From positions 1 through 45,204 of IMG/VR virus record IMGVR_UViG_3300046777_001421: 45,204 nucleotides of DNA, one strand, 5' to 3'. The notes beneath the pieces are model-generated. The model saw only the letters and a list, made by a program, of their open reading frames with translations, was not told the DNA's origin and ran no database searches. Within the stretch, counting starts at the first letter, position 1. Each line of letters opens with the position of its first letter. Source of the stretch: a virus. The translations under genes were made by a program, and so were the position numbers. Shown piece after piece: positions 44 through 45,204 of this stretch.

Positions 44-2587
44 ATGGCAGACGATCTTCTGAACAACGGTACCGACGTCAACGACTCCGAGGACGAGCAG
101 CGCGGCGAAACCGTCACCTTGCCGACCGAGGACGAGATGGAGGTCGAGGATACAGACGACGGCGGCGCTGTCATTCGCATGAAGAACGAGCAGGATGTGG
201 CCGACAAGAAGGCCCATTTTGCCAACATCGTCGACGAGGTCGATCGCAGCATGCTGGCCGACGCGACCAGCGATTTGATCGACAAAATCGAGCGCGACAA
301 GGACGCCCGATCCAAGCGCGACAAGCTCTACGAGGAAGGCCTGCGCCGAACCGGACTAGGCGACGATGCGCCTGGCGGCGCTCAGTTCACCGGTGCCAAC
401 AAGGTTGTGCACCCGATGCTGGTCGAGGCTTGCGTGGACTTCTCGGCTCGTTTCATGAAGGAGATTTTTCCTCCAAGCGGCCCCGTCAAATCCAAAATAA
501 ACGGCATTGCGGACAAGGAAAAGCTCGAAAAATCTCGCCGCAAGGCTGAGTTTATGAACTGGCAGACCACGCAGCAGATGCCCGAGTTGCGCGGCGAGTT
601 GGAACAGCTCTCCACCCAACTTCCACTGGGCGGTGGGCAGTATCTGAAGCTCATGTGGTCGCCGCAGTGGAAGCGCCCGATCGCTGAGTTCATTCCGATC
701 GACGACATTTACTTGCCGTTTGCGGCCACCAACTTCTACTCAGCCGAGCGCAAGACGCACGTTCAGTACGTGACCCGCGCCGAGTTCAACCGCCGCATGA
801 AGGCCGGCATGTACGCCGAGGTGGACATTGGCTCGCCCGATCAGATCGAGTTCAGCCGCGCCACCGTAGCCAACGACAAGATCGAAGGACGCGAGGACAC
901 CAGCTACAACGAGGACGGCCTGCGCACCATCTTCGAGATTTACACCCACTTGGACTTCGGTGACGGCATGGAGCCGTACATCATCAGCATCGACAAGTCC
1001 ACGCGCAAGGCCCTGGCCCTGTACCGCAACTGGGAGCCAGAGGACGACCGCCGCAAAGAGCTCGACTGGATTGTCGAGTTCCCGTTCGTGCCCTGGCGCG
1101 GCGCCTACCCGATTGGCCTCACGCACATGATCGGCGGTCTGTCCGGCGCTGCCACTGGCGCCCTGCGTGCGCTGCTGGACTCGGCTCACATCCAGAACAT
1201 CCCGACCATGATCAAGCTCAAAGGCGGGCCTGGCGGGCAGACCATCAACGTGCAACCAACCGAAGTGGTCGAGATCGAGGGCGGTGCCCTAGTCGACGAC
1301 ATTCGCAAGCTGGCCATGCCGCTTCCGTTCAACGGACCAAGTCCGACGCTGTTCCAGTTGCTTGGCTTCCTGGTGGACGCTGGCAAGGGTGTGGTGCAGA
1401 CATCGTTTGAGAAGCTCTCCGACCAAAACCCAAACGCACCGGTGGGAACGACCCTGGCCTTGATCGAGCAGGGTATGGTGGTTTTCAGCTCGATTCACTC
1501 GCGCCTGCACAACTCCATGGGGCGCGTGTTCAAGATTCTTCACCGAATCAACAGCGCCTACCTGACGGACGAGGAAATCGAGGCATCGGAGTCCGGGTTG
1601 GATGTGAAGCCAGAGGATTTCGACGGTCCGATGGACGTCGTTCCGGTGAGTGACCCGGCCATCTTTAGCGAAGCTCAGCGCTTTGCCCAGGTTCAGGCCG
1701 TACAGCAGCGCGCAGCCGTTATGCCGCAGATGTACGACCTGCGCAAGGTCGAGGAAATGTTCCTGCGCAACCTGAAGCTCAACACGGAAGATGTGCTACT
1801 GCCTCAGCCTGGCCACGATGACGTGGATCCGGTGAGCGAGAACGTTGCTGCATCGATGGGCCGTCCCGTGTACGTTCTGCCGCGCCAGGACCATGTGGCG
1901 CACATTCAGACGCATTTGGCGTTTTTGAAGTCGCCCGTGTTTGGAATGAACCCGGCGATTGTCAAGTCCTACATCTGGCCGATGGCTCAGCACCTGCGCG
2001 ATCACTTGCTGAACTTTTACCTGACGCAGGCCCACGAGGCTGTGCACATGGCTGAGCAGGAAAAGCTGATCACAGACGATGCTCAGCAGCAGGTGAAGGT
2101 GATCATTCGCGTTCAGCAAATCATCGAGCAGCAGCTCGCGCAGTTTTCGCAGGAGTTGGCGCAGATCGACCAGATGGCCCAGCAGTTCAAGCCTCAACCG
2201 CCGATGCCGCCTGACAACAGCCTGCAGATTGCGCAGCTCAACGCGCAAATTCAGCAAGCAGCACTGCAGCAGCGTGGTCAAACGGATGCCGGGCGCTTGC
2301 AGATCGAGCAAGCCAAGCTGGCCCAACAGCAGCAGAACGCCGCGCAAAAAGCGCAACTCGACGCTGCAGCCCTGGCCGACAAGCAGCAAGCGCGTGCTGA
2401 TGACTTCCAATCCGAGCAGATGCGCCAAGCCATGGAAAACCAGCGCACGGCAGCGGAGCTCGATGCGCGTGTTGGCATGAACACGGACGACAACATGACG
2501 GCCATGCGTTTGGCTGCAGCAGAAATTGCCTCCGGCGAGAAAATCGCTGTGAGCACCGGTACCGGGATCAACCCGGGCGCACGTTAA
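44..2587 (+). CDS. Portal protein (head-tail connector)
   Basis: 847 residues. The portal forms the ring at the capsid vertex through which DNA is packaged and ejected. The N-terminus (about 1-45) is very acidic. The central part carries features typical of large podoviral portals (an FTGANKVVHPMLVEA segment near residue 115, then an EFIPIDDIYLP stretch near 215). From about residue 680 the chain becomes Gln/Ala-rich and helical, as expected of a portal barrel or crown. Scaffold and capsid genes follow within 4 kb. The ATG at 44 has only a weak upstream AGG, but it sits directly behind the preceding stop. The assignment rests on length, composition and gene order plus recalled family features. 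Confidence 0.85.
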   Translation: MADDLLNNGTDVNDSEDEQRGETVTLPTEDEMEVEDTDDGGAVIRMKNEQDVADKKAHFANIVDEVDRSMLADATSDLIDKIERDKDARSKRDKLYEEGLRRTGLGDDAPGGAQFTGANKVVHPMLVEACVDFSARFMKEIFPPSGPVKSKINGIADKEKLEKSRRKAEFMNWQTTQQMPELRGELEQLSTQLPLGGGQYLKLMWSPQWKRPIAEFIPIDDIYLPFAATNFYSAERKTHVQYVTRAEFNRRMKAGMYAEVDIGSPDQIEFSRATVANDKIEGREDTSYNEDGLRTIFEIYTHLDFGDGMEPYIISIDKSTRKALALYRNWEPEDDRRKELDWIVEFPFVPWRGAYPIGLTHMIGGLSGAATGALRALLDSAHIQNIPTMIKLKGGPGGQTINVQPTEVVEIEGGALVDDIRKLAMPLPFNGPSPTLFQLLGFLVDAGKGVVQTSFEKLSDQNPNAPVGTTLALIEQGMVVFSSIHSRLHNSMGRVFKILHRINSAYLTDEEIEASESGLDVKPEDFDGPMDVVPVSDPAIFSEAQRFAQVQAVQQRAAVMPQMYDLRKVEEMFLRNLKLNTEDVLLPQPGHDDVDPVSENVAASMGRPVYVLPRQDHVAHIQTHLAFLKSPVFGMNPAIVKSYIWPMAQHLRDHLLNFYLTQAHEAVHMAEQEKLITDDAQQQVKVIIRVQQIIEQQLAQFSQELAQIDQMAQQFKPQPPMPPDNSLQIAQLNAQIQQAALQQRGQTDAGRLQIEQAKLAQQQQNAAQKAQLDAAALADKQQARADDFQSEQMRQAMENQRTAAELDARVGMNTDDNMTAMRLAAAEIASGEKIAVSTGTGINPGAR

Positions 2588-2605
2588 TTTTCAAAGGAGC
2601 ATCTC

Positions 2606-2743
2606 ATGAGCGACAAACCCACCCCTGGCACCGTGCCGATGACCGGCGCGTTTGTGAAACAACACCACCGCTTGGCCGCTGGCCAGCCCGTGACCGGTCA
2701 GACGCAACCGGCCGCCCCGTCGACGCCTAAGACGCCGGCCTGA
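2606..2743 (+). CDS. Small Pro/Thr-rich protein, unknown function
   Basis: 45 residues, beginning MSDKPTPGTVPMTGAFVK. AGGAG at 2595-2599 lies at good distance from the ATG, and the TGA at 2741-2743 shares a base with the next start (TGATG), so translation of the pair is probably coupled. The protein is rich in Pro, Thr, Gly and Gln and probably unfolded on its own. Its place right after the portal suggests a minor head protein or assembly factor, but no family is recognised. Confidence 0.6.
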   Translation: MSDKPTPGTVPMTGAFVKQHHRLAAGQPVTGQTQPAAPSTPKTPA

Positions 2744-2940
2744 TGGCCATCGAGGACCGCTTGCTCGGGAAGCTCAAGACTGACCAGCAGGTTTTTGCGC
2801 TTGAAGCCCTCAAGCGCCCGGTCGAGCGTGACGCTTTCGAGTACGGATACCGCGTGGGCATGGTTGCTGGATACGAAGCTGCCATTTCCGCCCTGCTTGA
2901 TCTTCTGAACGACGAGCGACACGGCGACCGAGATCTTTGA
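2743..2940 (+). CDS. Small helical protein, unknown function
   Basis: 65 residues. The ATG overlaps the TGA of the previous small gene by one base. The sequence reads as two or three amphipathic helices with alternating charge and no Cys. The phrase GYRVGMVAGYEAAISALLDLL resembles the short helical proteins often found between portal and scaffold genes in podoviruses. No catalytic motif or membrane segment is visible. Confidence 0.7.
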   Translation: MAIEDRLLGKLKTDQQVFALEALKRPVERDAFEYGYRVGMVAGYEAAISALLDLLNDERHGDRDL

Positions 2941-2967
2941 TCTGCACGGGTCTGTGATGATTTTTTG

Positions 2968-2990
2968 ATGGCGGCCGCTGTGGCCGCCGT
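2968..2990 (+). other. Stem-loop upstream of the co-chaperonin gene
   Basis: Perfect arms GGCGGCC (2970-2976) and GGCCGCC (2982-2988) surround the loop gctgt, and an A-T and a T-G pair extend the stem. No T-tract follows, so it is not a classical terminator. It lies in a 73-base gap and could stabilise or process the mRNA. Confidence 0.45.
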
Positions 2991-3013
2991 ACACCTGCTG
3001 AAAGGAGCAGAAG

Positions 3014-3424
3014 ATGACGGCTGAATTGCTGATCAACGCGATGCGGGAGGCATTCCCCGAAGCGAACCCCGGGATTATCCCGTTTGGAAGTCGCGTTTTA
3101 GTGCAGATTCGCACACCCAAGACCAAGACGGCGTCTGGGATCATCATCGACAACGGTTCCCGAGACACCGAGAAATGGAACACCCAGGTTGCCCGGGTCG
3201 TCTCCATCGGCGCTCTTGCGTTCAAGAACCGAAACACCATGGACTCCTGGCCCGAGGGCAGTTGGTGCGCGCCTGGTGACTACGTTCGCGTGCCTAAATA
3301 CGGCGGCGATCGGTGGGAAGTTCCTCTGGCCAACGGCGAATCCGCGCTGTTTGTGATCTTCAACGATCTGGACATCATTGGACAGGTGATCGGCGATCCG
3401 CTGGCCATTCGGGCGTTTATCTGA
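3014..3424 (+). CDS. GroES-like co-chaperonin
   Basis: 136 residues. Residues about 22-125 follow the GroES/Cpn10 pattern: PFGSRVLVQI (the PLxDRVxV strand), a mobile-loop-like segment with SGIII at 41-45 where GroES has GGIVL, VARVVSIG at 60-66 (GxVxAVG), GDYVRVPKYGG at 88-98 (GDxVxFxxYxG) and FVIFNDLDIIGQV at 113-125 (the C-terminal strand ending in DI). The chain is about 40 residues longer than GroES, with an N-terminal extension and an insertion near 70-85. T4 gp31 is the known precedent for a phage co-chaperonin that helps GroEL fold the capsid protein. Its place between portal and scaffold fits that role. AAAGGAG precedes the ATG. Confidence 0.8.
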   Translation: MTAELLINAMREAFPEANPGIIPFGSRVLVQIRTPKTKTASGIIIDNGSRDTEKWNTQVARVVSIGALAFKNRNTMDSWPEGSWCAPGDYVRVPKYGGDRWEVPLANGESALFVIFNDLDIIGQVIGDPLAIRAFI

Positions 3425-3436
3425 CGGGAGACTGAC

Positions 3437-3718
3437 ATGAGCACCGCACCTCGCATCACACCCGCCGATCTCGAAGCCAACATTGTTGACACCGAAATCG
3501 TCAAGCACATCACACACAGCGGCCAAATCCTGCGCTGGGCCATCTTGACAACGCGTAACGGCTTTGCTGTCACCGGTCGCCCGTCGGCGTCCGTGTCGCC
3601 ACTGAACGACAACGCTGAAATCGGCGAGGCCGTGGCCATCGAAAACGCCAAGAACGAGCTCTGGCCGCTCATGGGCTACGAGCTGCGCAGCAAACTGCAT
3701 GAAGCTGAATTGCAATAA
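3437..3718 (+). CDS. N4 gp49 / Sf6 gene 66 family protein
   Basis: 93 residues. The LTTRNGFAVTGRPSASVSP strand pair and the later AKNELWPLMGYELRSKL helix are the hallmark of the phage gp49/gp66 family (NGFxVxG, then KxWPLxGYxLxxxL). The molecular function of that family is not known to me. It lies between the co-chaperonin and scaffold genes and has GGGAGA upstream of the ATG. Confidence 0.75.
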   Translation: MSTAPRITPADLEANIVDTEIVKHITHSGQILRWAILTTRNGFAVTGRPSASVSPLNDNAEIGEAVAIENAKNELWPLMGYELRSKLHEAELQ

Positions 3719-3734
3719 AACCAAGGAGTAAACC

Positions 3735-4721
3735 ATGGCAACGATGATTGAAGATGACGGCAAGCCAAACGACGATCAAAACAGCAATGAAGAGCTGGTG
3801 ATCGTTGAGGATCAGCCGCAGAATCAGATCCAGGATGACGATGACGACGGCGACGCGCGCCTGTCCGGCAACGACGACGACGGCCACCAGGACGACGGCA
3901 ACGACGCCGAGCGTGAGGCGATCCGCGAGCGCCGCCGCAAAGAGAAGGCCGAGCGCAAGCAACGCCGCGAAGAAGCGATCAGCCGCGACAAGCTGGAGCT
4001 GAACTTCCTGCGCAAGCGCAACGACGACCTTGAGCGCCGCCTCGGAAGCGTTGAGCAGCGCACGCACCAGGCTGATCTCTCGAACTTCGATGCTCAGATT
4101 TCGCAAGCGAAAAACGAAATCGAAATGGCCGAGCGCGTGATTGCCAAGGCCGTTGCCGCGGGCAATGGCGAAGATGTCACGCAGGCCATGCGCTATCGTG
4201 ATCAGGCCATGCAGAAGGCGCAGCAGCTTGAGTTTTCAAAGCAGCAGGCAACAACCCAGCGTCCGACGCAACAGGACAAGGGCATAAACGACATGGCGGT
4301 GCATTACGCCAAAGAGTTCATCAGTGAAAACCCCTGGTATGACCTCAAAGGCCAAAACGAGGACAGCGCAATCGTGCTGGCCATCGATGCCACGTTGCAC
4401 CGCGAAGGATTCCGTCCTGACACGGAGGAATACTGGGACGAACTGCGTGAGCGAGCTGCGCGTCGTTTGCCGGAGCGATTCAAGCCCACTGGAAACGAAC
4501 GAGACACCCCGTCACGTCAACAACAACAATCTCGCACCCCTCGTGGCGGCCCCGCCGTTGGCTCTGGACGCGAGCATGCTCCGACCAGCACCCGCACCGA
4601 GGTGTACATCAGCCCCGAGCGCAAGCAGGCGCTGATCGACGCAGGCGTCTGGGACGATCCCGTGCTTCGCATGAAGTACGTGAAACGCTATGCCGAATAC
4701 GACAAAAACAACCGCGCTTAA
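3735..4721 (+). CDS. Putative scaffolding protein
   Basis: 328 residues. The first 60 are extremely acidic (DDDDDGDARLSGNDDDG), followed by a dense Arg/Lys/Glu coiled coil (about 55-150), a helical middle region, and a C-terminal SPERKQALIDAGVWDDP segment with a basic tail (KYVKRYAEYDKNNRA). Highly charged, helical, acidic-then-basic proteins placed directly before the major capsid gene are typically scaffolds whose basic C-terminus binds capsid protein. CAAGGAG precedes the ATG. No enzyme motif is visible. The call is from composition and context. Confidence 0.7.
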   Translation: MATMIEDDGKPNDDQNSNEELVIVEDQPQNQIQDDDDDGDARLSGNDDDGHQDDGNDAEREAIRERRRKEKAERKQRREEAISRDKLELNFLRKRNDDLERRLGSVEQRTHQADLSNFDAQISQAKNEIEMAERVIAKAVAAGNGEDVTQAMRYRDQAMQKAQQLEFSKQQATTQRPTQQDKGINDMAVHYAKEFISENPWYDLKGQNEDSAIVLAIDATLHREGFRPDTEEYWDELRERAARRLPERFKPTGNERDTPSRQQQQSRTPRGGPAVGSGREHAPTSTRTEVYISPERKQALIDAGVWDDPVLRMKYVKRYAEYDKNNRA

Positions 4722-4729
4722 AAATGCCG

Positions 4730-4757
4730 TTGTGTTTTCCCAAATCCCACATATAAT
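4730..4757 (+). promoter_or_regulatory. Sigma70-type promoter inside the head module
   Basis: TTGTGT (4730-4735), a 16-base spacer and a perfect TATAAT (4752-4757) lie in the 64-base gap after the scaffold gene. The next ATG is 29 bases downstream of the -10 box. It would boost expression of the capsid genes over the portal and scaffold genes. Confidence 0.65.
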
Positions 4758-4785
4758 TTTTCCCAATCGCTGAAAGGAGCGAGAA

Positions 4786-5316
4786 ATGTCCGACGAACGC
4801 CTAAAGAAATCTGCTGGTGACAACCGTGAAAGCCGCGCGATGGTAGATCGTGCCGCAACTGAATCACGCGCCCTGTCCGATGATGAGCGGGTTGAAATGT
4901 TCCGACAGCAGTTCCACCAGTCCTCTCTTCCGGACTTGCCCAAACTTGACGGCTGGCATTGCTGCTGGCTGACCACTTCGAATCCGCGCGACTCCATCCA
5001 CAACCGCATGCGGTTGGGTTACGAGCCCCTGAAGCCAAGCGACGTGCCTGGCTGGGACTATGTCACCGTTAAAACCGGTGAATGGCAGGGCTTTATTGGC
5101 GTCAATGAAATGCTCGCTTTCAAACTCCCGATCAGCCTGTATGAGCGATTCATGCAGGAAGCTCACCACGACGCGCCGCTGCGCGAAGAAGAAAAGCTGA
5201 CCGATACAGCCGAGTTTATGGAGCAGCAGGCCAGGGCGTCGGGTTCACGCATGGATGCGGGTGATGGCATGACGGAAATTGGACAAAAACGGAAAGCTCA
5301 GTTCGAGCTGACGTAA
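4786..5316 (+). CDS. Conserved phage head-module protein, unknown function
   Basis: 176 residues. The N-terminal third is charged and probably disordered. A compact core follows with HCCWLTTSNPRDSIHNRMRLGYEPLK, SDVPGWDYVTVKTGEW and GVNEMLAFKLP segments, then a charged C-terminus (EEKLTDTAEFMEQQ). I recall similar proteins between scaffold and capsid genes in podoviruses, but no biochemical role. GAAAGGAG lies upstream of the ATG, and a near-consensus promoter sits just before it. No membrane segment. Confidence 0.75.
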   Translation: MSDERLKKSAGDNRESRAMVDRAATESRALSDDERVEMFRQQFHQSSLPDLPKLDGWHCCWLTTSNPRDSIHNRMRLGYEPLKPSDVPGWDYVTVKTGEWQGFIGVNEMLAFKLPISLYERFMQEAHHDAPLREEEKLTDTAEFMEQQARASGSRMDAGDGMTEIGQKRKAQFELT

Positions 5317-5374
5317 GTCAGTGCGAGCCGACTTCCTGATCTGAAGTCCATTCAACTCATCAAAGGAAAAGCAA

Positions 5375-5968
5375 ATGTCTTCGACTAGCGCACCCTTTGG
5401 CTTCCGTGCCTCGTACCACAACAGTGGTCAAATGCGCCCGAAAGCCTACACCATTGCGAGCACCTACGCCGCCAACATCTTCTCGGGAGACCCCGTGAAG
5501 CTGACGGATGCTGGTGTTATTCAACTGGGTACCTCTGACGGCACCCGTTCTGGCACCACCGATGGCATTACCCTTCTGGGTATTTTCGCCGGCTGCCAAT
5601 ACAACGACGCCACTGGCAAGCCCACAATCAGCCCCTTCTGGCCCACCGGCACCACCGCGACCAACATCGTGGCCTGGGTGTACGATGATCCGGAAACGCT
5701 GTTTGACGTTCAGTACAACAACCCCTCCGCTGGCACCACGGTTCAGACCGCTGTTGGCGAAGAGTGCGATTGGACTGTCGCCTCCCCCGGTGGCTCGACC
5801 CAGACGGGCTTGAGCAACACCTACCTCACCGCCATCCAAGCCACCTCTGGCCAGTTCCAGATCACCGGCTTTGCTGGCAACATCAACGACTCACTGACCG
5901 ACGCTTACGTTGTGGCCACTGTTCGTATCAACGAGCACGCCTACAAGGCTGCCGTCAACAGCATCTAA
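5375..5968 (+). CDS. Putative capsid decoration/cement protein
   Basis: 197 residues, rich in Gly, Ala, Ser and Thr and predicted mostly beta. It begins SSTSAPFGFRASYHNSGQM and contains repeated short strands (AANIFSGDPVKLTD, DGITLLGIFAGCQY, FDVQYNNPSAG). It ends 13 bases before the major capsid gene and has AAAGGAAA before its ATG. A beta-rich protein cotranscribed with the capsid protein is most simply a decoration or head-stabilising protein. The alternative is an unrelated virion protein. Confidence 0.6.
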   Translation: MSSTSAPFGFRASYHNSGQMRPKAYTIASTYAANIFSGDPVKLTDAGVIQLGTSDGTRSGTTDGITLLGIFAGCQYNDATGKPTISPFWPTGTTATNIVAWVYDDPETLFDVQYNNPSAGTTVQTAVGEECDWTVASPGGSTQTGLSNTYLTAIQATSGQFQITGFAGNINDSLTDAYVVATVRINEHAYKAAVNSI

Positions 5969-5981
5969 GGAGGGCTGAAAC

Positions 5982-6896
5982 ATGGCAACCCCAATGCGTA
6001 GTACGGACTTCCGGTCCGTTGTTGAGCCGATCCTGAACGAAGTGTTCGACGGCGTTTATGAGCAGCGTGCTGACGAGTGGAAACAGGTGTTCCGCGAGCA
6101 GAAAGGCATCCCGCGCAACTACCACGAAGAACCCGTCCTGTACGGCTTCGGTGCTGCGCCCGAGCTGCCTGACGGCATGGCCGTGACCTACCAGTCCGGC
6201 GGTGTTCTGTTCCTGCAGCGCTACCTGTACAAGGTGTACGGCCTGGCCTTCGCCCTGACCAAAGTTCTGGTCGAGGACGGTGACCACATCCGTATCGGTC
6301 AGACCTACGCCAAGCACCTGGCGCAGTCCCTGATCGAGACCAAAGAAACCCTGGCTGCCAACATCCTGAACCGCGCCTTCAACAGCGCGTACACGGGTGG
6401 TGACGGCGTTGCCCTGGTTTCCACGGCTCACCCGATCGTGAACGGCACGTTCAGCAACCAGCTGTCCACCGCCGCCGCCCTGTCGCAGACGTCCCTCGAG
6501 CAGATGCTGATCCAGATCCGCAATGCCGTGGACAACAATGGCAAGCGCATCCGCTTGACGCCAAAGAAGATCGTCGCCGGTCCTTCTAACGTGTTCCAGG
6601 CTGAAGTGCTGCTGAAGTCTGTGTTGCGCACCGGCACCGCCGACAACGACATCAACCCGGTGAAGTCGATGGGTCTGCTGGCCGATGGTCAAGCCAACCT
6701 GTCTCGTATCACCAGCACCACCGCCTGGTGGGTTCAGACCGACGCCCCCGAAGGTCTGAAGCTGTTGATGCGTCGCGGCCTGGAGAAATCCATGGAAGGC
6801 GACTTCGAAACCGACAGCATGCGCTACAAGGCTACCGAGCGTTATGTGCTTGGATGGACTGACCCGCGTGGAGTCTACGGCACGGCTGGCGCCTGA
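5982..6896 (+). CDS. Major capsid protein
   Basis: 304 residues. It follows the scaffold and putative decoration genes and has AAGGAGG before the ATG. The chain has an N-terminal helix region (MRSTDFRSVVEPILNEVFDG), an extended strand-loop stretch (VTYQSGGVLFLQRYLYKVYG), a long helix (GQTYAKHLAQSLIETKETLA), the DGVALVSTAHPI motif, common in HK97-fold capsid proteins, and a C-terminal region with TTAWWVQTDAPEGLKLL and RYVLGWTDPRGVYG. These fit HK97-fold major capsid proteins of podoviruses and Mu-like phages. Two hairpins follow the stop. Host GroEL and the phage GroES-like protein are plausible folding partners. Confidence 0.85.
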   Translation: MATPMRSTDFRSVVEPILNEVFDGVYEQRADEWKQVFREQKGIPRNYHEEPVLYGFGAAPELPDGMAVTYQSGGVLFLQRYLYKVYGLAFALTKVLVEDGDHIRIGQTYAKHLAQSLIETKETLAANILNRAFNSAYTGGDGVALVSTAHPIVNGTFSNQLSTAAALSQTSLEQMLIQIRNAVDNNGKRIRLTPKKIVAGPSNVFQAEVLLKSVLRTGTADNDINPVKSMGLLADGQANLSRITSTTAWWVQTDAPEGLKLLMRRGLEKSMEGDFETDSMRYKATERYVLGWTDPRGVYGTAGA

Positions 6897-6904
6897 CGTT
6901 TTAC

Positions 6905-6969
6905 GCGGGGCGGTCCAACCGCCTCGCATAAGATGCCAACTGAAGCCCCTGCCCAAAAAGCGGGGGCTT
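6905..6969 (+). terminator. Tandem hairpins after the capsid gene, possible partial terminator
   Basis: Hairpin one pairs 6905-6914 with 6918-6927 (10 bp with one G-T pair). Hairpin two pairs 6943-6952 with 6960-6969 (AAGCCCCTGC with GCGGGGGCTT, one wobble) around a ccaaaaa loop. Only a weak T-run follows, so partial termination or 3'-end protection of capsid mRNA is more likely than a full stop. Confidence 0.5.
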
Positions 6970-7059
6970 TGCTGGGCACCTTTAACCAGCGCAGCAGACG
7001 GCCCGCCCTGGCCGACGACATGCAGACGGCTGCGTAACACTCGCATGTGAGGAAAAATC

Positions 7060-7269
7060 ATGAGTCAAACCACGTTCTCTGGTCCGGTCAAATCCAACGC
7101 CGGATTCTTGTTTCCCGTCACCACGACCGCCAGCCTTCCGGCCGCCAACGGCGTTGCTGCGGGCACCGCTTACGTCATCTCGGACAACGGCGCTGGCAAC
7201 GACGAGTACTGCATCGTAATCAGCACCGGCGCCGCTTGGGTGACCGCTGTTGGCGCGGCTTTGAGCTGA
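7060..7269 (+). CDS. Small beta-rich virion protein, unknown
   Basis: 69 residues with alternating hydrophobic and Gly/Ser/Thr residues (GFLFPVTTTASLPAANG, GTAYVISDNGAGNDEYCIVIS). This is the pattern of a small beta-barrel or a fibre-like fragment. GAGG precedes the ATG. It lies directly downstream of the capsid hairpins and upstream of another small beta-rich gene, so a minor head or decoration protein is likely. No family is named. Confidence 0.65.
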   Translation: MSQTTFSGPVKSNAGFLFPVTTTASLPAANGVAAGTAYVISDNGAGNDEYCIVISTGAAWVTAVGAALS

Positions 7270-7288
7270 TCCCCTGCGTTGTGACGCA

Positions 7289-7306
7289 CCCCGTCAATTG
7301 GCGGGG
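7289..7306 (+). other. Short GC hairpin between two small head genes
   Basis: CCCCG (7289-7293) pairs with CGGGG (7302-7306) around an 8-base loop. The T-run is too short for a confident terminator call. Confidence 0.3.
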
Positions 7307-7332
7307 CTTCAACCAAACCAGGAGATCACCTT

Positions 7333-7596
7333 ATGATGACCGACAAATTAGGCTATAAGCCGGTTGCAGCCGAGACCGCTGTGATCAAGGCCACGCCTGC
7401 CGGACTGTTTTCTGTGACCTGCATCATTGCTGGCGCCGTGACGGTCTACGACAACGCATCTGCAGCAAGCGGCAACATCCTCTACACCAAGACCATGGCC
7501 GTGGGCGAAATTGCCACTTGGGCCAGTCACGGTCTGGCCGCAAACAACGGCTTGGTAGTGGTTGCTGCGGGGACGGTGAACATCGCCTACACCTGA
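7333..7596 (+). CDS. Small beta-rich virion protein, unknown
   Basis: 87 residues, with an ATGATG start (the second ATG at 7336 is equally possible) behind AGGAG. The sequence is a series of short strands (AGLFSVTCIIAGAVTVYDNAS, LYTKTMAVGEIATW, NGLVVVAAGTVNIAYT), resembling one beta-sandwich domain of the kind used in phage head or tail decoration. There is no membrane segment, catalytic motif or recognised family. Confidence 0.65.
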   Translation: MMTDKLGYKPVAAETAVIKATPAGLFSVTCIIAGAVTVYDNASAASGNILYTKTMAVGEIATWASHGLAANNGLVVVAAGTVNIAYT

Positions 7597-8496: not shown

Positions 8497-8557
8497 TCCA
8501 ACACCCATCCGGGCGCGCTGAATCGGCGGCCATCTGACGACCACACACGGAGTTAGC

Positions 8558-9550
8558 ATGGCCTTTTCCGGCAGCATCAGCAGCACAACATTTAACGCCC
8601 TGAAGGTCGTCGATCACGCCTTCCGGCGATGCCGCCTGCCTGCCCAGGCCATCACCGCCGAGATGCACAGCTACGCGCTCGAATCGCTGTATCTGCTGCT
8701 CTCTGAGCTTGCAAACACCAAGACTCCAAGCTGGTGTATTGAGCGCCAGATTTACCCGTTTTACGAAGGCCAGCCGGTCATCACACTGGCCAACGGTACC
8801 GTTGAGGTTTTGAACGCAAACCTGCGCACGATGCAGGAGTTGACGGGCGTCACTGTGTCTTTGCCGACAAGCTACACGGTGGCGTTCTCGAACTTGTATG
8901 GCGGCGTCGGCACCGTAAACTCGGTTGGCGTGAAGTGGCTCGGCGCGTCTGTTGACCTGACGTTTGAAACCTCTGAAGACGGGATTATTTGGACGCAGGT
9001 CGGGACTCAGACCACGGTGGCATCGACGGGTGAGTGGACCTGGACCGATATTGTTCCAGCTCTGGCCAAGGAGTTCTTCCGCATCACCAGCGCATCACCG
9101 ATGCTCATGGAGCAGGTCTATTTGGGAACGATGCCACAGGAAATTCCCATGGGCGTACTGAACAGAGACACTTACGTGGCTCAGAGCAACAAGGTGTTCC
9201 TTGGCCGCCCGCTGACCTATTGGTTCCAGCGTGACCTGCCTCGACCGGTGATGAATCTCTGGCCAAGCCCGAACGCTGCAGCCGAGCACCAACAGCTCAT
9301 CGTTTGGCGCCATCGCCACATCATGGACACGCAGAACCTGCAGCAGGACGTTGAGGTGCCTCAGCGCTGGCTGGAGGCGATCACAGCCGGTCTGTCTGCG
9401 CGTGTTGGCGCCGAGACACCGATGGTGGACCCGAACTTGATTACCGTGCTGGATCAGAAGTGGATCGTTGCTCGACAAGCGGCGTGGGATGGGGACAACG
9501 ATGGGTCGCCCACGTTCATCAATCCTGGCATCGGTGCATACACGAAGTAA
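8558..9550 (+). CDS. Putative head-tail adaptor / tail protein
   Basis: 330 residues. The N-terminal part is helical (FNALKVVDHAFRRCRLPAQ, YALESLYLLLSEL), as in connector adaptors that sit under the portal. A beta insertion (about 105-190, including FETSEDGIIWTQVG) looks like a discoidin or carbohydrate-binding type sandwich. The C-terminal half resumes an adaptor-like pattern with RPVMNLWPSPN and VEVPQRWLEAITAGLSARVG. It has its own promoter and CGGAG before the ATG. It may be an adaptor with an added binding domain, or a tail tube-like protein. The exact family is uncertain. Confidence 0.6.
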   Translation: MAFSGSISSTTFNALKVVDHAFRRCRLPAQAITAEMHSYALESLYLLLSELANTKTPSWCIERQIYPFYEGQPVITLANGTVEVLNANLRTMQELTGVTVSLPTSYTVAFSNLYGGVGTVNSVGVKWLGASVDLTFETSEDGIIWTQVGTQTTVASTGEWTWTDIVPALAKEFFRITSASPMLMEQVYLGTMPQEIPMGVLNRDTYVAQSNKVFLGRPLTYWFQRDLPRPVMNLWPSPNAAAEHQQLIVWRHRHIMDTQNLQQDVEVPQRWLEAITAGLSARVGAETPMVDPNLITVLDQKWIVARQAAWDGDNDGSPTFINPGIGAYTK

Positions 9551-38368: not shown

Positions 38369-38575
38369 ATGGCTGCGCTCGAGCAACTGCCGCCAGCCAG
38401 AAAACAACTCATGAAACCACACCCCGTAAAACCGCGCCTCAGTCTCGAGTACTCCATCCTCTACAAGCGCGAGGTTTGGTTCTGTCGCGGTGGCGGCTCG
38501 ATGGGCCTTGGCTGGGACCGGACAGAGGCCTACAGCAACTGGTGGTACCGATACAACGAGAGGAATGAGAAATGA
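38369..38575 (+). CDS. Small protein, unknown
   Basis: 68 residues from ATG 38369, which shares a base with the TGA of a seven-codon leader (38346-38369) that has a strong GGAGGAGG site. ATG 38330 and ATG 38411 are other in-frame starts. C-terminal WFCRGGGSMGLGWDRTEAYS and NWWYRY resemble a common phage miniprotein with WxCxGxG...GxGxTxxxAY. Overlaps rtcB as ATGA. Confidence 0.6.
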   Translation: MAALEQLPPARKQLMKPHPVKPRLSLEYSILYKREVWFCRGGGSMGLGWDRTEAYSNWWYRYNERNEK

Positions 38576-39768
38576 AACAAGTGATTCAAGACGAAGGCGC
38601 ACGGCCTATCAAAATTTGGACCGATGAAGTTGAGGCCAGCGCGCTGACGCAGCTCAAGAACCTGGCGCGCCTGCCGTTCATTAACAGCAACGGCGTGGCC
38701 TGCATGCCCGATGTGCATGCTGGTATTGGCTCCACCGTGGGCACCGTGATCGCCACAGAAAATGCTGTGATACCAGCTGCTGTTGGTGTGGACATTGGCT
38801 GCGGGATGAATGCGGTGCGCCTGTCGCTGAAGGCAAGAGACTTGCCTGATTCATTAACAGAAATTCGAGGCGCAATTGAAAAGGCCATCCCCCTTGGCGC
38901 TGGTGGTCGCGTCCAGTCAGAAGCAGATTTTCAAGAACGTGTTGGACGCATCCCCAAAACTAGTTTTGGTCTTAGCCAGAACCTCAACGAAATTGCAGGC
39001 AGGTATTGGGAAAAGGCGTCATACCAACTTGGCACCCTGGGTTCTGGCAACCACTTCATCGAGCTGTGTCTGGATGAAAACCAGGACGTTTGGATCATGC
39101 TGCACTCAGGCTCACGCGGAATAGGCAACATGATTGGAACGCACTACATCGCCAAGGCAAAGCGCCAGATGGAGAAATTTTTCATCTCTCTACCCGACGA
39201 CAACTTGGCTTATTTCCCAGAAGACACAGAAGATTTTCAAGAGTACATGGAGGCTGTCGGCTGGGCGCAGAACTACGCCCTGGAGAACCGCAAGGTCATG
39301 ATGGAGTGCGTGCTCAACGCACTACGCGAGCATATTGAAAAGCCGTTCACCATCACAACCGAGGCAATCAACTGCCACCACAACTATGTCGAAAAAGAAA
39401 ATCATTTCGGACGAAATATGTGGATCACACGAAAAGGTGCAATTCGGGCGCGCGATGGTGATCTTGGAATCATCCCTGGAAGTATGGGTCAGCGGTCTTA
39501 CATCGTGCGAGGCAAAGGAAATCTGGCTTCCTACTGCTCATGTTCGCATGGCGCTGGACGCGTCATGTCCCGAGCCGAAGCAAAGCGGCGCTTCACTATT
39601 GCTGACCTTGTTGCTCAAACGTCTGGCGTAGAGTGCCGCAAAGACGAGGCGGTGATCGATGAGATTCCGGCCAGTTACAAGGACATTGACCAAGTAATGG
39701 CCAACCAAATCGATCTGGTCGAAGTGGTTCACACCTTGAAACAGGTTCTTTGCGTGAAGGGGGCGTGA
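38572..39768 (+). CDS. rtcB: RNA-splicing ligase RtcB
   Basis: 398 residues, close to the 408 of the E. coli enzyme. RtcB seals RNA ends that carry 2',3'-cyclic or 3'-phosphate with 5'-OH, using GTP and Mn2+. All signature blocks are present: DVHAGIGSTVGTVIA (D47, H49), VGVDIGCGMN (D74, C77), GTLGSGNHFIEL (H161), LHSGSRGIG (H178), INCHHNYVEKE (H269/H270), TRKGAIRA, IPGSMG and the GMP-accepting SCSHGAGR (H326). Nothing is broken. The stop is two bases before the next small gene. Phage tRNA repair after host anticodon nuclease attack is the simplest role. Confidence 0.93.
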   Translation: MKQVIQDEGARPIKIWTDEVEASALTQLKNLARLPFINSNGVACMPDVHAGIGSTVGTVIATENAVIPAAVGVDIGCGMNAVRLSLKARDLPDSLTEIRGAIEKAIPLGAGGRVQSEADFQERVGRIPKTSFGLSQNLNEIAGRYWEKASYQLGTLGSGNHFIELCLDENQDVWIMLHSGSRGIGNMIGTHYIAKAKRQMEKFFISLPDDNLAYFPEDTEDFQEYMEAVGWAQNYALENRKVMMECVLNALREHIEKPFTITTEAINCHHNYVEKENHFGRNMWITRKGAIRARDGDLGIIPGSMGQRSYIVRGKGNLASYCSCSHGAGRVMSRAEAKRRFTIADLVAQTSGVECRKDEAVIDEIPASYKDIDQVMANQIDLVEVVHTLKQVLCVKGA

Positions 39769-43881: not shown

Positions 43882-44121
43882 ATGACCAGGGCCGAGTTCG
43901 AGCAGACGCTCAATAAAATCGTCTACGCCAACGTGATCGATTTCCTGAACCGCATCGCATCTACCGGCGAACCCAATGAGATCGGCGGCGAGTGGCTTGC
44001 GCATATCCCGCACAACACCACGCTGCAGGAGCTGCTCAATCAGCGCGGTTTGACGTGGAAATTCAATCACTCCACAGGCCGGTACTTCATCGAGCGGGCT
44101 CCGATTCGGGGGAAGCGATGA
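43882..44121 (+). CDS. Small protein, unknown, upstream of helicase
   Basis: 79 residues from ATG 43882, MTRAEFEQTLNKIVYANVID, GEWLAHIPHNTTLQELLNQR, then TGRYFIERAPIRGKR. Overlaps the helicase ATG. Not recognised. Placement suggests a partner of the helicase. Confidence 0.64.
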   Translation: MTRAEFEQTLNKIVYANVIDFLNRIASTGEPNEIGGEWLAHIPHNTTLQELLNQRGLTWKFNHSTGRYFIERAPIRGKR

Positions 44122-45204
44122 TCACCCCCCGCCCCCGACAACAAAAAGCCATCGACGACCTGCGCGCCGCATACCGTCGCGGCTTCAAGGCACCTATTCT
44201 GAGAGCATCAACCGGCTTCGGCAAGTCCGCAACAGCCATCTGCATGATTGAGAGCGCGCTGGCCAAAGGAAATCGCGTCTGGTTTATCGCGCACCTTAAG
44301 GAAATCCTGAACGACACCAGCAGCCGACTGACCGGTGCAGGAATCGCCCACGGTTGGATCGCCGCTGGCCGCGATGGCAACAGACACCACCCGGTGCAGG
44401 TGGCCATGGTGCAAACGCTGGTGCGCCGCCTAGATCAATACGAGCCTCCAAGTCTCATCATCGTGGACGAGGCGCACCTAGCTGTGGCCAACACCTACCA
44501 GACCATCTTTGAGTGGGCTGGCGCAGGCCCGAAGTTCAAACGGCCTGGTGGTGCGCACCTCCTGCACTTAACGGCATCGCCATGCAGATTAGATGGACGC
44601 GGCATGGGGGAGGTCGCCGACATCATCGTCGAGACATGCGGCACGCAAGAGTTGATCGACGAGGGACTGCTGGCGCCCATCCGCTACTACGCCCCCATCG
44701 AGCCAGACCTGTCCGGTGTGCACACCGTTGCAGGCGACTTCAACCAGGGCGAGCTGGCCGCCGCGATGGACAAGCCCGTCATCACCGGGTCGGCTGTCAC
44801 GCATTACCGCAAGCTGGCGCACGGGCGACCGGCCGTTGCGTTTTGCGTGACCGTCGAGCACGCCACCAACGTGGCCGAGCAGTTTCGCCAAGCCGGGTAC
44901 CGAGCCGTTGCCATCAGTGGCGACTCGGACACCGTCGAGCGCGACGCCGCCCTGCAGGGCCTGCGCGATGGCAGCCTGGACGTTGTGTGCAACTGCGCGT
45001 TGTGGGTGGCCGGTGTGGACGCTCCGTCGATTGGCTGCATCATCCAGCTCGCGCCCACGCAGTCGGTCGTGAAGTACTTGCAGTCCGTCGGCCGTGGCCT
45101 GCGCACGCACCCGGGCAAGACCGACTGCATCGTGCTCGACCACGCGGGCAACGTGAAGCGCCACGGGCTGCCCACCGACCTGCGCGAGTGGACCCTGGCC
45201 GCCG
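44118..45204 (+). CDS. DEAH-box SF2 helicase (cut by window end)
   Basis: 362 codons to the edge, no stop reached. N-terminal RPRQQKAI (Q-motif-like), RASTGFGKS Walker A (29-37), IIVDEAH (motif II, DEAH 117-120), LTASP (motif III, 151-155) and the C-terminal SVGRGLRTHPGKTDCIVLDH (motif VI) show an SF2 ATPase of the Rad25/SSL2-like phage type. It couples ATP use to unwinding or moving along DNA, probably in replication or recombination. It begins as ATGA on the preceding stop. Confidence 0.9.
   Translation, partial: MITPRPRQQKAIDDLRAAYRRGFKAPILRASTGFGKSATAICMIESALAKGNRVWFIAHLKEILNDTSSRLTGAGIAHGWIAAGRDGNRHHPVQVAMVQTLVRRLDQYEPPSLIIVDEAHLAVANTYQTIFEWAGAGPKFKRPGGAHLLHLTASPCRLDGRGMGEVADIIVETCGTQELIDEGLLAPIRYYAPIEPDLSGVHTVAGDFNQGELAAAMDKPVITGSAVTHYRKLAHGRPAVAFCVTVEHATNVAEQFRQAGYRAVAISGDSDTVERDAALQGLRDGSLDVVCNCALWVAGVDAPSIGCIIQLAPTQSVVKYLQSVGRGLRTHPGKTDCIVLDHAGNVKRHGLPTDLREWTLAA

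Follow-up and report, generated by a model that had tools for sequence, protein, structure and literature searches.

The phage genome fragment described here encodes a GroES-type co-chaperonin (Cpn10) within its head module. Taken as a whole, the observations are best explained by a phage lid acting on host GroEL in the folding of head proteins, chiefly of the major capsid protein (MCP), and this explanation is considered probable. The strictness with which the Cpn10 gene accompanies one MCP lineage favors a capsid-folding lid, with the MCP as its presumed client.

The window, meaning the whole stretch of 45,204 bases that was analyzed, is an incomplete linear contig, most complete relatives having genomes of ∼50 to 65 kb, and statements on absent genes apply to the window. 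Outside the head module, it contains an RtcB-type RNA ligase gene at 38572 to 39768 (phrog_1075; E value of 4e-153), whose product may repair RNA cut by host defenses, and a DNA helicase gene (phrog_16) at 43992 to 45204, which is cut short by the contig end.

Organization of the head module

The gene order of the module is portal, 65-residue open reading frame (ORF), Cpn10, gp49-like insert, putative scaffold, 176-residue ORF, 197-residue ORF, and MCP. The features are as follows:

44 to 2587, + strand: portal protein, 847 residues, 94.4 kDa (phrog_1216 portal, E value of 3e-11; tblastn matches to annotated portals and head-to-tail connectors)
2743 to 2940, + strand: 65-residue predicted helical hairpin (HMM over the loci, alignment, and AlphaFold2 model)
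3001 to 3007, + strand: Shine-Dalgarno-like AAAGGAG, 6 nucleotides 5' of the Cpn10 ATG (sequence as read)
3014 to 3424, + strand: Cpn10/GroES-type co-chaperonin, 136 residues (ATG at 3014, stop codon ending at 3424)
3437 to 3718, + strand: Phage_gp49_66 family protein (PF13876, Pfam score of 62 bits; gp49/Sf6 gene 66 family)
3735 to 4721, + strand: putative scaffold protein, 328 residues (conserved position just 3' of the Cpn10 gene)
4786 to 5316, + strand: 176-residue head-module protein (conserved position; weak match to phrog_36003, of unknown function, E value of 0.0017)
5375 to 5968, + strand: 197-residue head-module protein, possibly a decoration protein by its position (phrog_37556, of unknown function, E value of 3e-13; precedes the MCP gene)
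5982 to 6896, + strand: MCP, 304 residues, 33.5 kDa (PF25209 Phage_capsid_4, 45.6 bits; phrog_4523 and phrog_133)

The preliminary description of this DNA placed the co-chaperonin gene between portal and scaffold and regarded this placement as unusual. The position between the portal and capsid genes is correct, with the qualification that the name "scaffold" denotes position only, ORF 3735-4721 showing no confident family match among the Pfam and PHROG profiles. The placement is the rule for this phage group rather than an exception, since the same gene order, with or without the gp49-like insert, is found in 80 IMG/VR loci as well as in named phages. The latter include Caulobacter phage RW, Roseobacter phage CRP-902, and the Pelagibacter phages HTVC023P and HTVC027P, with Planktothrix phage Pag-Yong1, Alcaligenes phage QDWS535, DSL-LC04, and several Manatee Spring genomes as further carriers. 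Many genes separate the portal gene from the Cpn10 gene in CRP-902, where the latter still adjoins the putative scaffold gene on its 5' side. The PF13876 insert between the Cpn10 and putative scaffold genes is absent or displaced in many relatives.

In 206 of the 214 loci, the 65-residue ORF immediately precedes the Cpn10 gene, and it often overlaps the start of that gene. The AlphaFold2 model of its product, built from an alignment of the window and IMG/VR loci only, shows a hairpin of two helices (residues 2 to 24 and 31 to 64) with a pLDDT of 88. Tyr34 is nearly invariant and Gly39 is invariant in this protein, which belongs to no named family, and the lid and the hairpin may act together. 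For the MCP, a sequence search found no related solved structure.

A scan of positions 2400 to 7400 found no sigma-70-like promoter and, on the + strand, no terminator-like site; terminator-like sites in this region are no more numerous than expected by chance. The scan appears compatible with a single transcript and is otherwise uninformative. The head genes lie on one strand without a + strand promoter or terminator-like site from portal to MCP, which is weak evidence that the lid and the head proteins are probably co-produced.

Identity and predicted structure of the co-chaperonin

The AAAGGAG motif preceding ORF 3014-3424 reads as a good ribosome-binding site. The product matches the Pfam Cpn10 profile PF00166 over residues 21 to 124 with 36.2 bits (E value of 6e-9), above the curated cutoff of 21.1 bits, and the PHROG profile phrog_3188, "co-chaperonin GroES," with an E value of 2.4e-8. 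A phmmer search against PDB sequences retrieves the Cpn10 proteins of algae, Mycobacterium, Thermus, and mitochondria. Comparison with five close relatives gives a dN/dS ratio of ∼0.04 to 0.08 (dN, 0.03 to 0.09; dS, 0.8 to 1.1), and the ORF is therefore a gene under strong purifying selection.

The AlphaFold2 model, based on 75 aligned relatives from IMG/VR, reaches a pLDDT of 94.4 and a pTM of 0.88 without any low-confidence stretch. In a Foldseek comparison with the PDB, the 16 top matches are all Cpn10 chains, with E values down to 1e-6, and gp31 of phage T4 (1g31) follows at rank 18 with an E value of 4.6e-3. A second structural aligner yields Z scores of 10.0 to GroES from H. thermoluteolus (8wuc), 8.3 to E. 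coli GroES, and 7.0 to 7.7 to T4 gp31. The co-chaperonin pattern first noticed in the sequence is thus borne out by the Pfam and PHROG profiles, the predicted fold, and the selection on the gene, which together rule out a chance motif match, and the confident model shows the β-barrel of Cpn10, so that the identification withstands the structural check proposed for it at the outset. By every criterion checked in this analysis, from profiles to the predicted fold, the protein classifies as a member of the Cpn10 family.

An excess of about 40 residues over GroES had also been described, and the count agrees: the phage protein has 136 residues and E. coli GroES, with its sequence confirmed against 1aon, has 97, a difference of 39. 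Part of the excess is an N-terminal extension containing a helix. The mobile-loop segment between its flanking strands comprises 29 residues compared to 25 in E. coli GroES (28 to 30 across the phage family), and the roof, or dome, loop is present as an 18-residue segment compared to 14 residues. A longer hairpin near the C terminus and a conserved C-terminal tail of 9 residues add to the difference. It is plausible that the longer roof, the N-terminal helix, and the C-terminal tail alter the cage or make contact with the client.

Co-occurrence with the major capsid protein lineage

Searches for co-occurrence were anchored on the MCP, not on the co-chaperonin. In IMG/VR, 53 MCP-anchored loci extend at least 3.6 kb upstream, and all 53 have a Cpn10 gene there on the same strand; the distance between the two genes is 1.8 to 3.5 kb over all IMG/VR loci holding both. 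Loci encoding an MCP of the MW202675 type, 32% identical to that of the window, likewise have Cpn10 upstream (58/58). Of the 62 MCP loci that could be assessed in genome assemblies of bacteria and archaea, 60 have Cpn10 upstream of the MCP gene. The two exceptions (L442 and L443) are broken or chimeric contigs, one with a run of N's joining the phage to host genes and the other passing from host genes into an incomplete stretch of phage DNA, and were rejected as loci truly lacking Cpn10. All 12 related phage records searched whole carry the gene.

Three genomes, MW202675, MW202601, and vir526, seemed to be free of Cpn10, none being found beside the portal or MCP gene, and all three carry it elsewhere. 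In MW202601, which together with vir526 has the most remotely related MCP, the Cpn10 gene is unlinked to the MCP gene and lies beside a gene for a single-stranded DNA-binding protein; a 47.9-kb contig of the MW202601 type likewise carries Cpn10. The archaeal virus vir526, also with a remotely related MCP and with a portal homologous at the profile level (annotated phrog_1216), has its Cpn10 gene just upstream of the terminase gene (locus L344, positions 2827 to 3183). This virus is assigned to methanogenic archaea, and its Cpn10 is of the bacterial type, grouping in the tree with cellular Cpn10 proteins on a very long branch.

As a control, phages sharing only a relative of the helicase were examined, and 1 of 10, Shewanella phage 1/44, contains Cpn10. 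Fisher's exact test of 15/15 against 1/10 gives a P value of 5e-6, a figure that overstates the association, as related genomes are not independent. The cases of unlinked Cpn10 genes are more telling than this value. Phage 1/44 itself was discarded as support, its Cpn10 gene lying near tail genes and its MCP not being detectably related (BLASTP E value of 0.022). This gene (locus L355, positions 8515 to 8820) is directly 5' of the major tail protein gene and represents a separate line of phage Cpn10, relatives of which occur in Vibrio-collection and Pseudoalteromonas phages.

Since the loci share ancestry, the strict co-occurrence is in part due to a single head module having been inherited vertically, and within the main clade Cpn10 is accompanied by the portal, the putative scaffold, and further head proteins as strictly as by the MCP. 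The MCP is set apart mainly by the unlinked Cpn10 genes, a small number of cases on long branches of the tree, and in vir526 the portal is homologous at the profile level as well. Alternatively, an additional or higher-affinity co-chaperonin could redirect host GroEL to several proteins of the phage, the MCP depending on it no more than, e.g., the 94-kDa portal, the scaffold, or tail proteins do. Such a general-purpose lid agrees with the location of the gene between the portal and head genes and its co-occurrence with the portal, with the occurrence of Cpn10 in different settings in other phages, among them Shewanella phage 1/44, where it is in the tail region, and Pseudoalteromonas phage B8b (PMC4294664), and with the ability of T4 gp31 to serve all GroES clients (PMC6318259). 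It is judged unlikely, though the strongest of the alternatives, because Cpn10 follows the MCP lineage even where it is unlinked to the MCP gene and the unrelated control phages mostly lack it. A lid directed chiefly at the MCP remains the preferred reading.

Predicted GroEL-binding loop and probable chaperonin partner

The tripeptide I43-I44-I45 in the mobile loop of the phage protein corresponds to I25-V26-L27 of GroES. Position 43 is hydrophobic in 75 of 75 family sequences (Ile in 66), position 45 is hydrophobic in 75 of 75 and position 44 in 89%, and the preceding Gly42 is conserved in 71 of the 75. In GroES, I25 and L27 are required for binding to GroEL, and the exchange V26D is tolerated (PMC5575113). 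The conservation of the tripeptide together with these mutant data therefore indicates that the phage family retains the residues for docking to GroEL.

No Cpn60 gene is found in the 45,204-nucleotide window or in the 12 related phage records, each searched whole, and a phage-encoded Cpn60 was consequently set aside as the partner. Because no phage Cpn60 is seen, the partner capped by the phage Cpn10 is most likely host GroEL. The earlier suggestion that the phage uses host GroEL with its own lid for its capsid protein is supported by the Cpn10 itself, the missing Cpn60, and the retained GroEL-binding residues, and the link to the capsid is supported by co-occurrence; no support was obtained for a direct transfer of the T4 gp31 rationale. 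That the protein is a lid on host GroEL serving phage morphogenesis is highly probable.

A protein of Cpn10 fold could also have lost its chaperonin function and act independently of GroEL as a structural or assembly part of the head. The location among structural genes would fit such a component, as would the conserved N-terminal helix and C-terminal tail and the long conserved roof segment. This alternative is very improbable, given that the GroEL-binding tripeptide and the glycine before it are among the best-conserved positions of the family and that residues 43 and 45 obey the constraint measured for I25 and L27 of GroES (PMC5575113).

Origin and relation to cellular GroES

Relatives of the phage infect, among others, Caulobacter, Roseobacter, Pelagibacter, Planktothrix, and Alcaligenes. 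The nearest named relatives infect Caulobacter vibrioides, more distant ones being prophages of Phenylobacterium and Salinisphaera, and from these hosts one may guess that the host of the present phage is close to Caulobacter. The Phenylobacterium and Salinisphaera genomes contain a host groES gene in addition to a prophage Cpn10 gene accompanied by an MCP of this lineage, and the two copies are distinct. In the tree, the head-linked phage Cpn10 proteins stand apart from the cellular ones, with weak support for the deep branches. A recent capture of host groES is not favored, owing to the differing copies within the same genomes and this weakly supported separation. Phenylobacterium sp. J367 contains two prophage Cpn10 regions (L456 and L458) ∼45 kb apart near a contig end; the second copy is frameshifted, and the duplication could be assembly redundancy at the contig end.

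Chaperonin genes derived from hosts are found in phages, and one survey lists GroES among variable genomic island genes (PMC6487183). The gene could accordingly be a chance acquisition from a host, or an auxiliary gene for general stress tolerance, unlinked to morphogenesis. This explanation ranks as the least probable, in view of the strong purifying selection, the constant location within the head module whatever the host, the presence in essentially all relatives, the distinctness from host GroES where both copies are present, and the separate position in the tree, weak as its deep support is.

Comparison with known co-chaperonins

The closest named counterpart is the co-chaperonin GroES of Caulobacter phage RW (RW_GP090c), which is 61% identical to the Cpn10 of the window and is encoded at the same place between the portal and capsid genes; the MCPs of the two phages are 84% identical. 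Phage RW, with the near-identical relatives KcrB, RLK, and GB2A, is a different species and has no annotated gp49-like gene between its Cpn10 and putative scaffold genes. The HTVC023P-type pelagiphages and the Roseobacter phages CRP-901 and CRP-902 possess a homologous head module with Cpn10 just 5' of the putative scaffold gene, their GroES proteins being ∼33% identical to that of the window and CRP-902 having the extra genes between portal and Cpn10. In 82 HTVC023P-type pelagiphages, GroES has been reported to belong to the core genes (PMC9599517), and it is shown in the genome map of CRP-901/902 (PMC10149686). The siphovirus Pseudoalteromonas phage B8b carries Cpn10 in another gene context (PMC4294664).

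Bacterial GroES proteins (E. coli, 1aon; H. thermoluteolus, 8wuc) show the same fold and the same position of the GroEL-binding tripeptide as the phage Cpn10, which differs by its N- and C-terminal extensions and its longer loop and roof, with 15 to 27% identity in structural alignments. T4 gp31 resembles it as a phage-encoded lid of Cpn10 fold for host GroEL with a link to capsid folding, the lid role being predicted in the present case. A profile of the phage Cpn10 family searched against the PDB finds cellular Cpn10 proteins and no gp31 up to an E value of 10; the match observed to gp31 is one of fold. gp31 has no roof loops, a mobile loop of 22 residues compared to 16 in GroES, and a client, gp23, which at ∼56 kDa slightly exceeds the capacity of the GroES cage (PMC6318259). 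Contrary to gp31, the phage Cpn10 has a roof segment, which is even longer than that of GroES, and the MCP, with only 33.5 kDa, fits the normal GroES cage. The mobile loop exceeds that of GroES in both phage proteins, with the smaller gain in the phage Cpn10. The analogy to T4 gp31 drawn at the outset is therefore apt for a phage lid tied to capsid production and for the longer mobile loop, and it fails for the roof loop, which is present, and for the capsid protein, which is not oversized.

Proposed role

In the proposed mechanism, a phage-specific GroES-type lid would be produced together with the head proteins and would most likely form a ring of seven members. This ring would dock via the mobile loop, with I43, I44, and I45, on the apical domains of host GroEL and would seal a cavity suited to the folding of phage head proteins, chiefly of the MCP, which is encoded four to five genes downstream. 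The MCP is, with modest confidence, the main client; the alternatives are the 94-kDa portal and the putative scaffold protein. It counts against the MCP that it is small enough for the normal GroES cage. To our knowledge, other phages, with MCPs from more distant families, also manage without a phage lid for these proteins.

A further-reaching proposal is put forward tentatively, as a real possibility: this tailed-phage MCP lineage may obligately need a co-chaperonin carried by the virus. The lid would have been kept, moved, or reacquired with the capsid gene, although the MCP would fit an ordinary GroES cage, in phages of Alpha-, Beta-, and Gammaproteobacteria and Cyanobacteria and in a methanogen virus.

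Significance

For this phage group, GroES-type lids have already been annotated and published, and the GroES annotations of Caulobacter phage RW and others are present in GenBank. How strictly Cpn10 accompanies the MCP lineage was not found stated elsewhere in the literature searched, which mostly lacked subscription journals. Among phage GroES-like lids, we know of an established client only for T4 gp31 and its relatives. Client size is the usual explanation for the T4 lid. An MCP of 33.5 kDa fits the GroES cage, and size alone therefore cannot explain the lid described here. The presence of Cpn10 wherever this MCP type is found suggests that the capsid cannot fold without the lid. A large and abundant phage group, found in freshwater in the present case and in the sea with the HTVC023P type, keeps a lid fixed in its head module together with one MCP lineage, which raises the question, testable in the culturable Caulobacter phage RW, of why a 33-kDa capsid protein should have a special lid.
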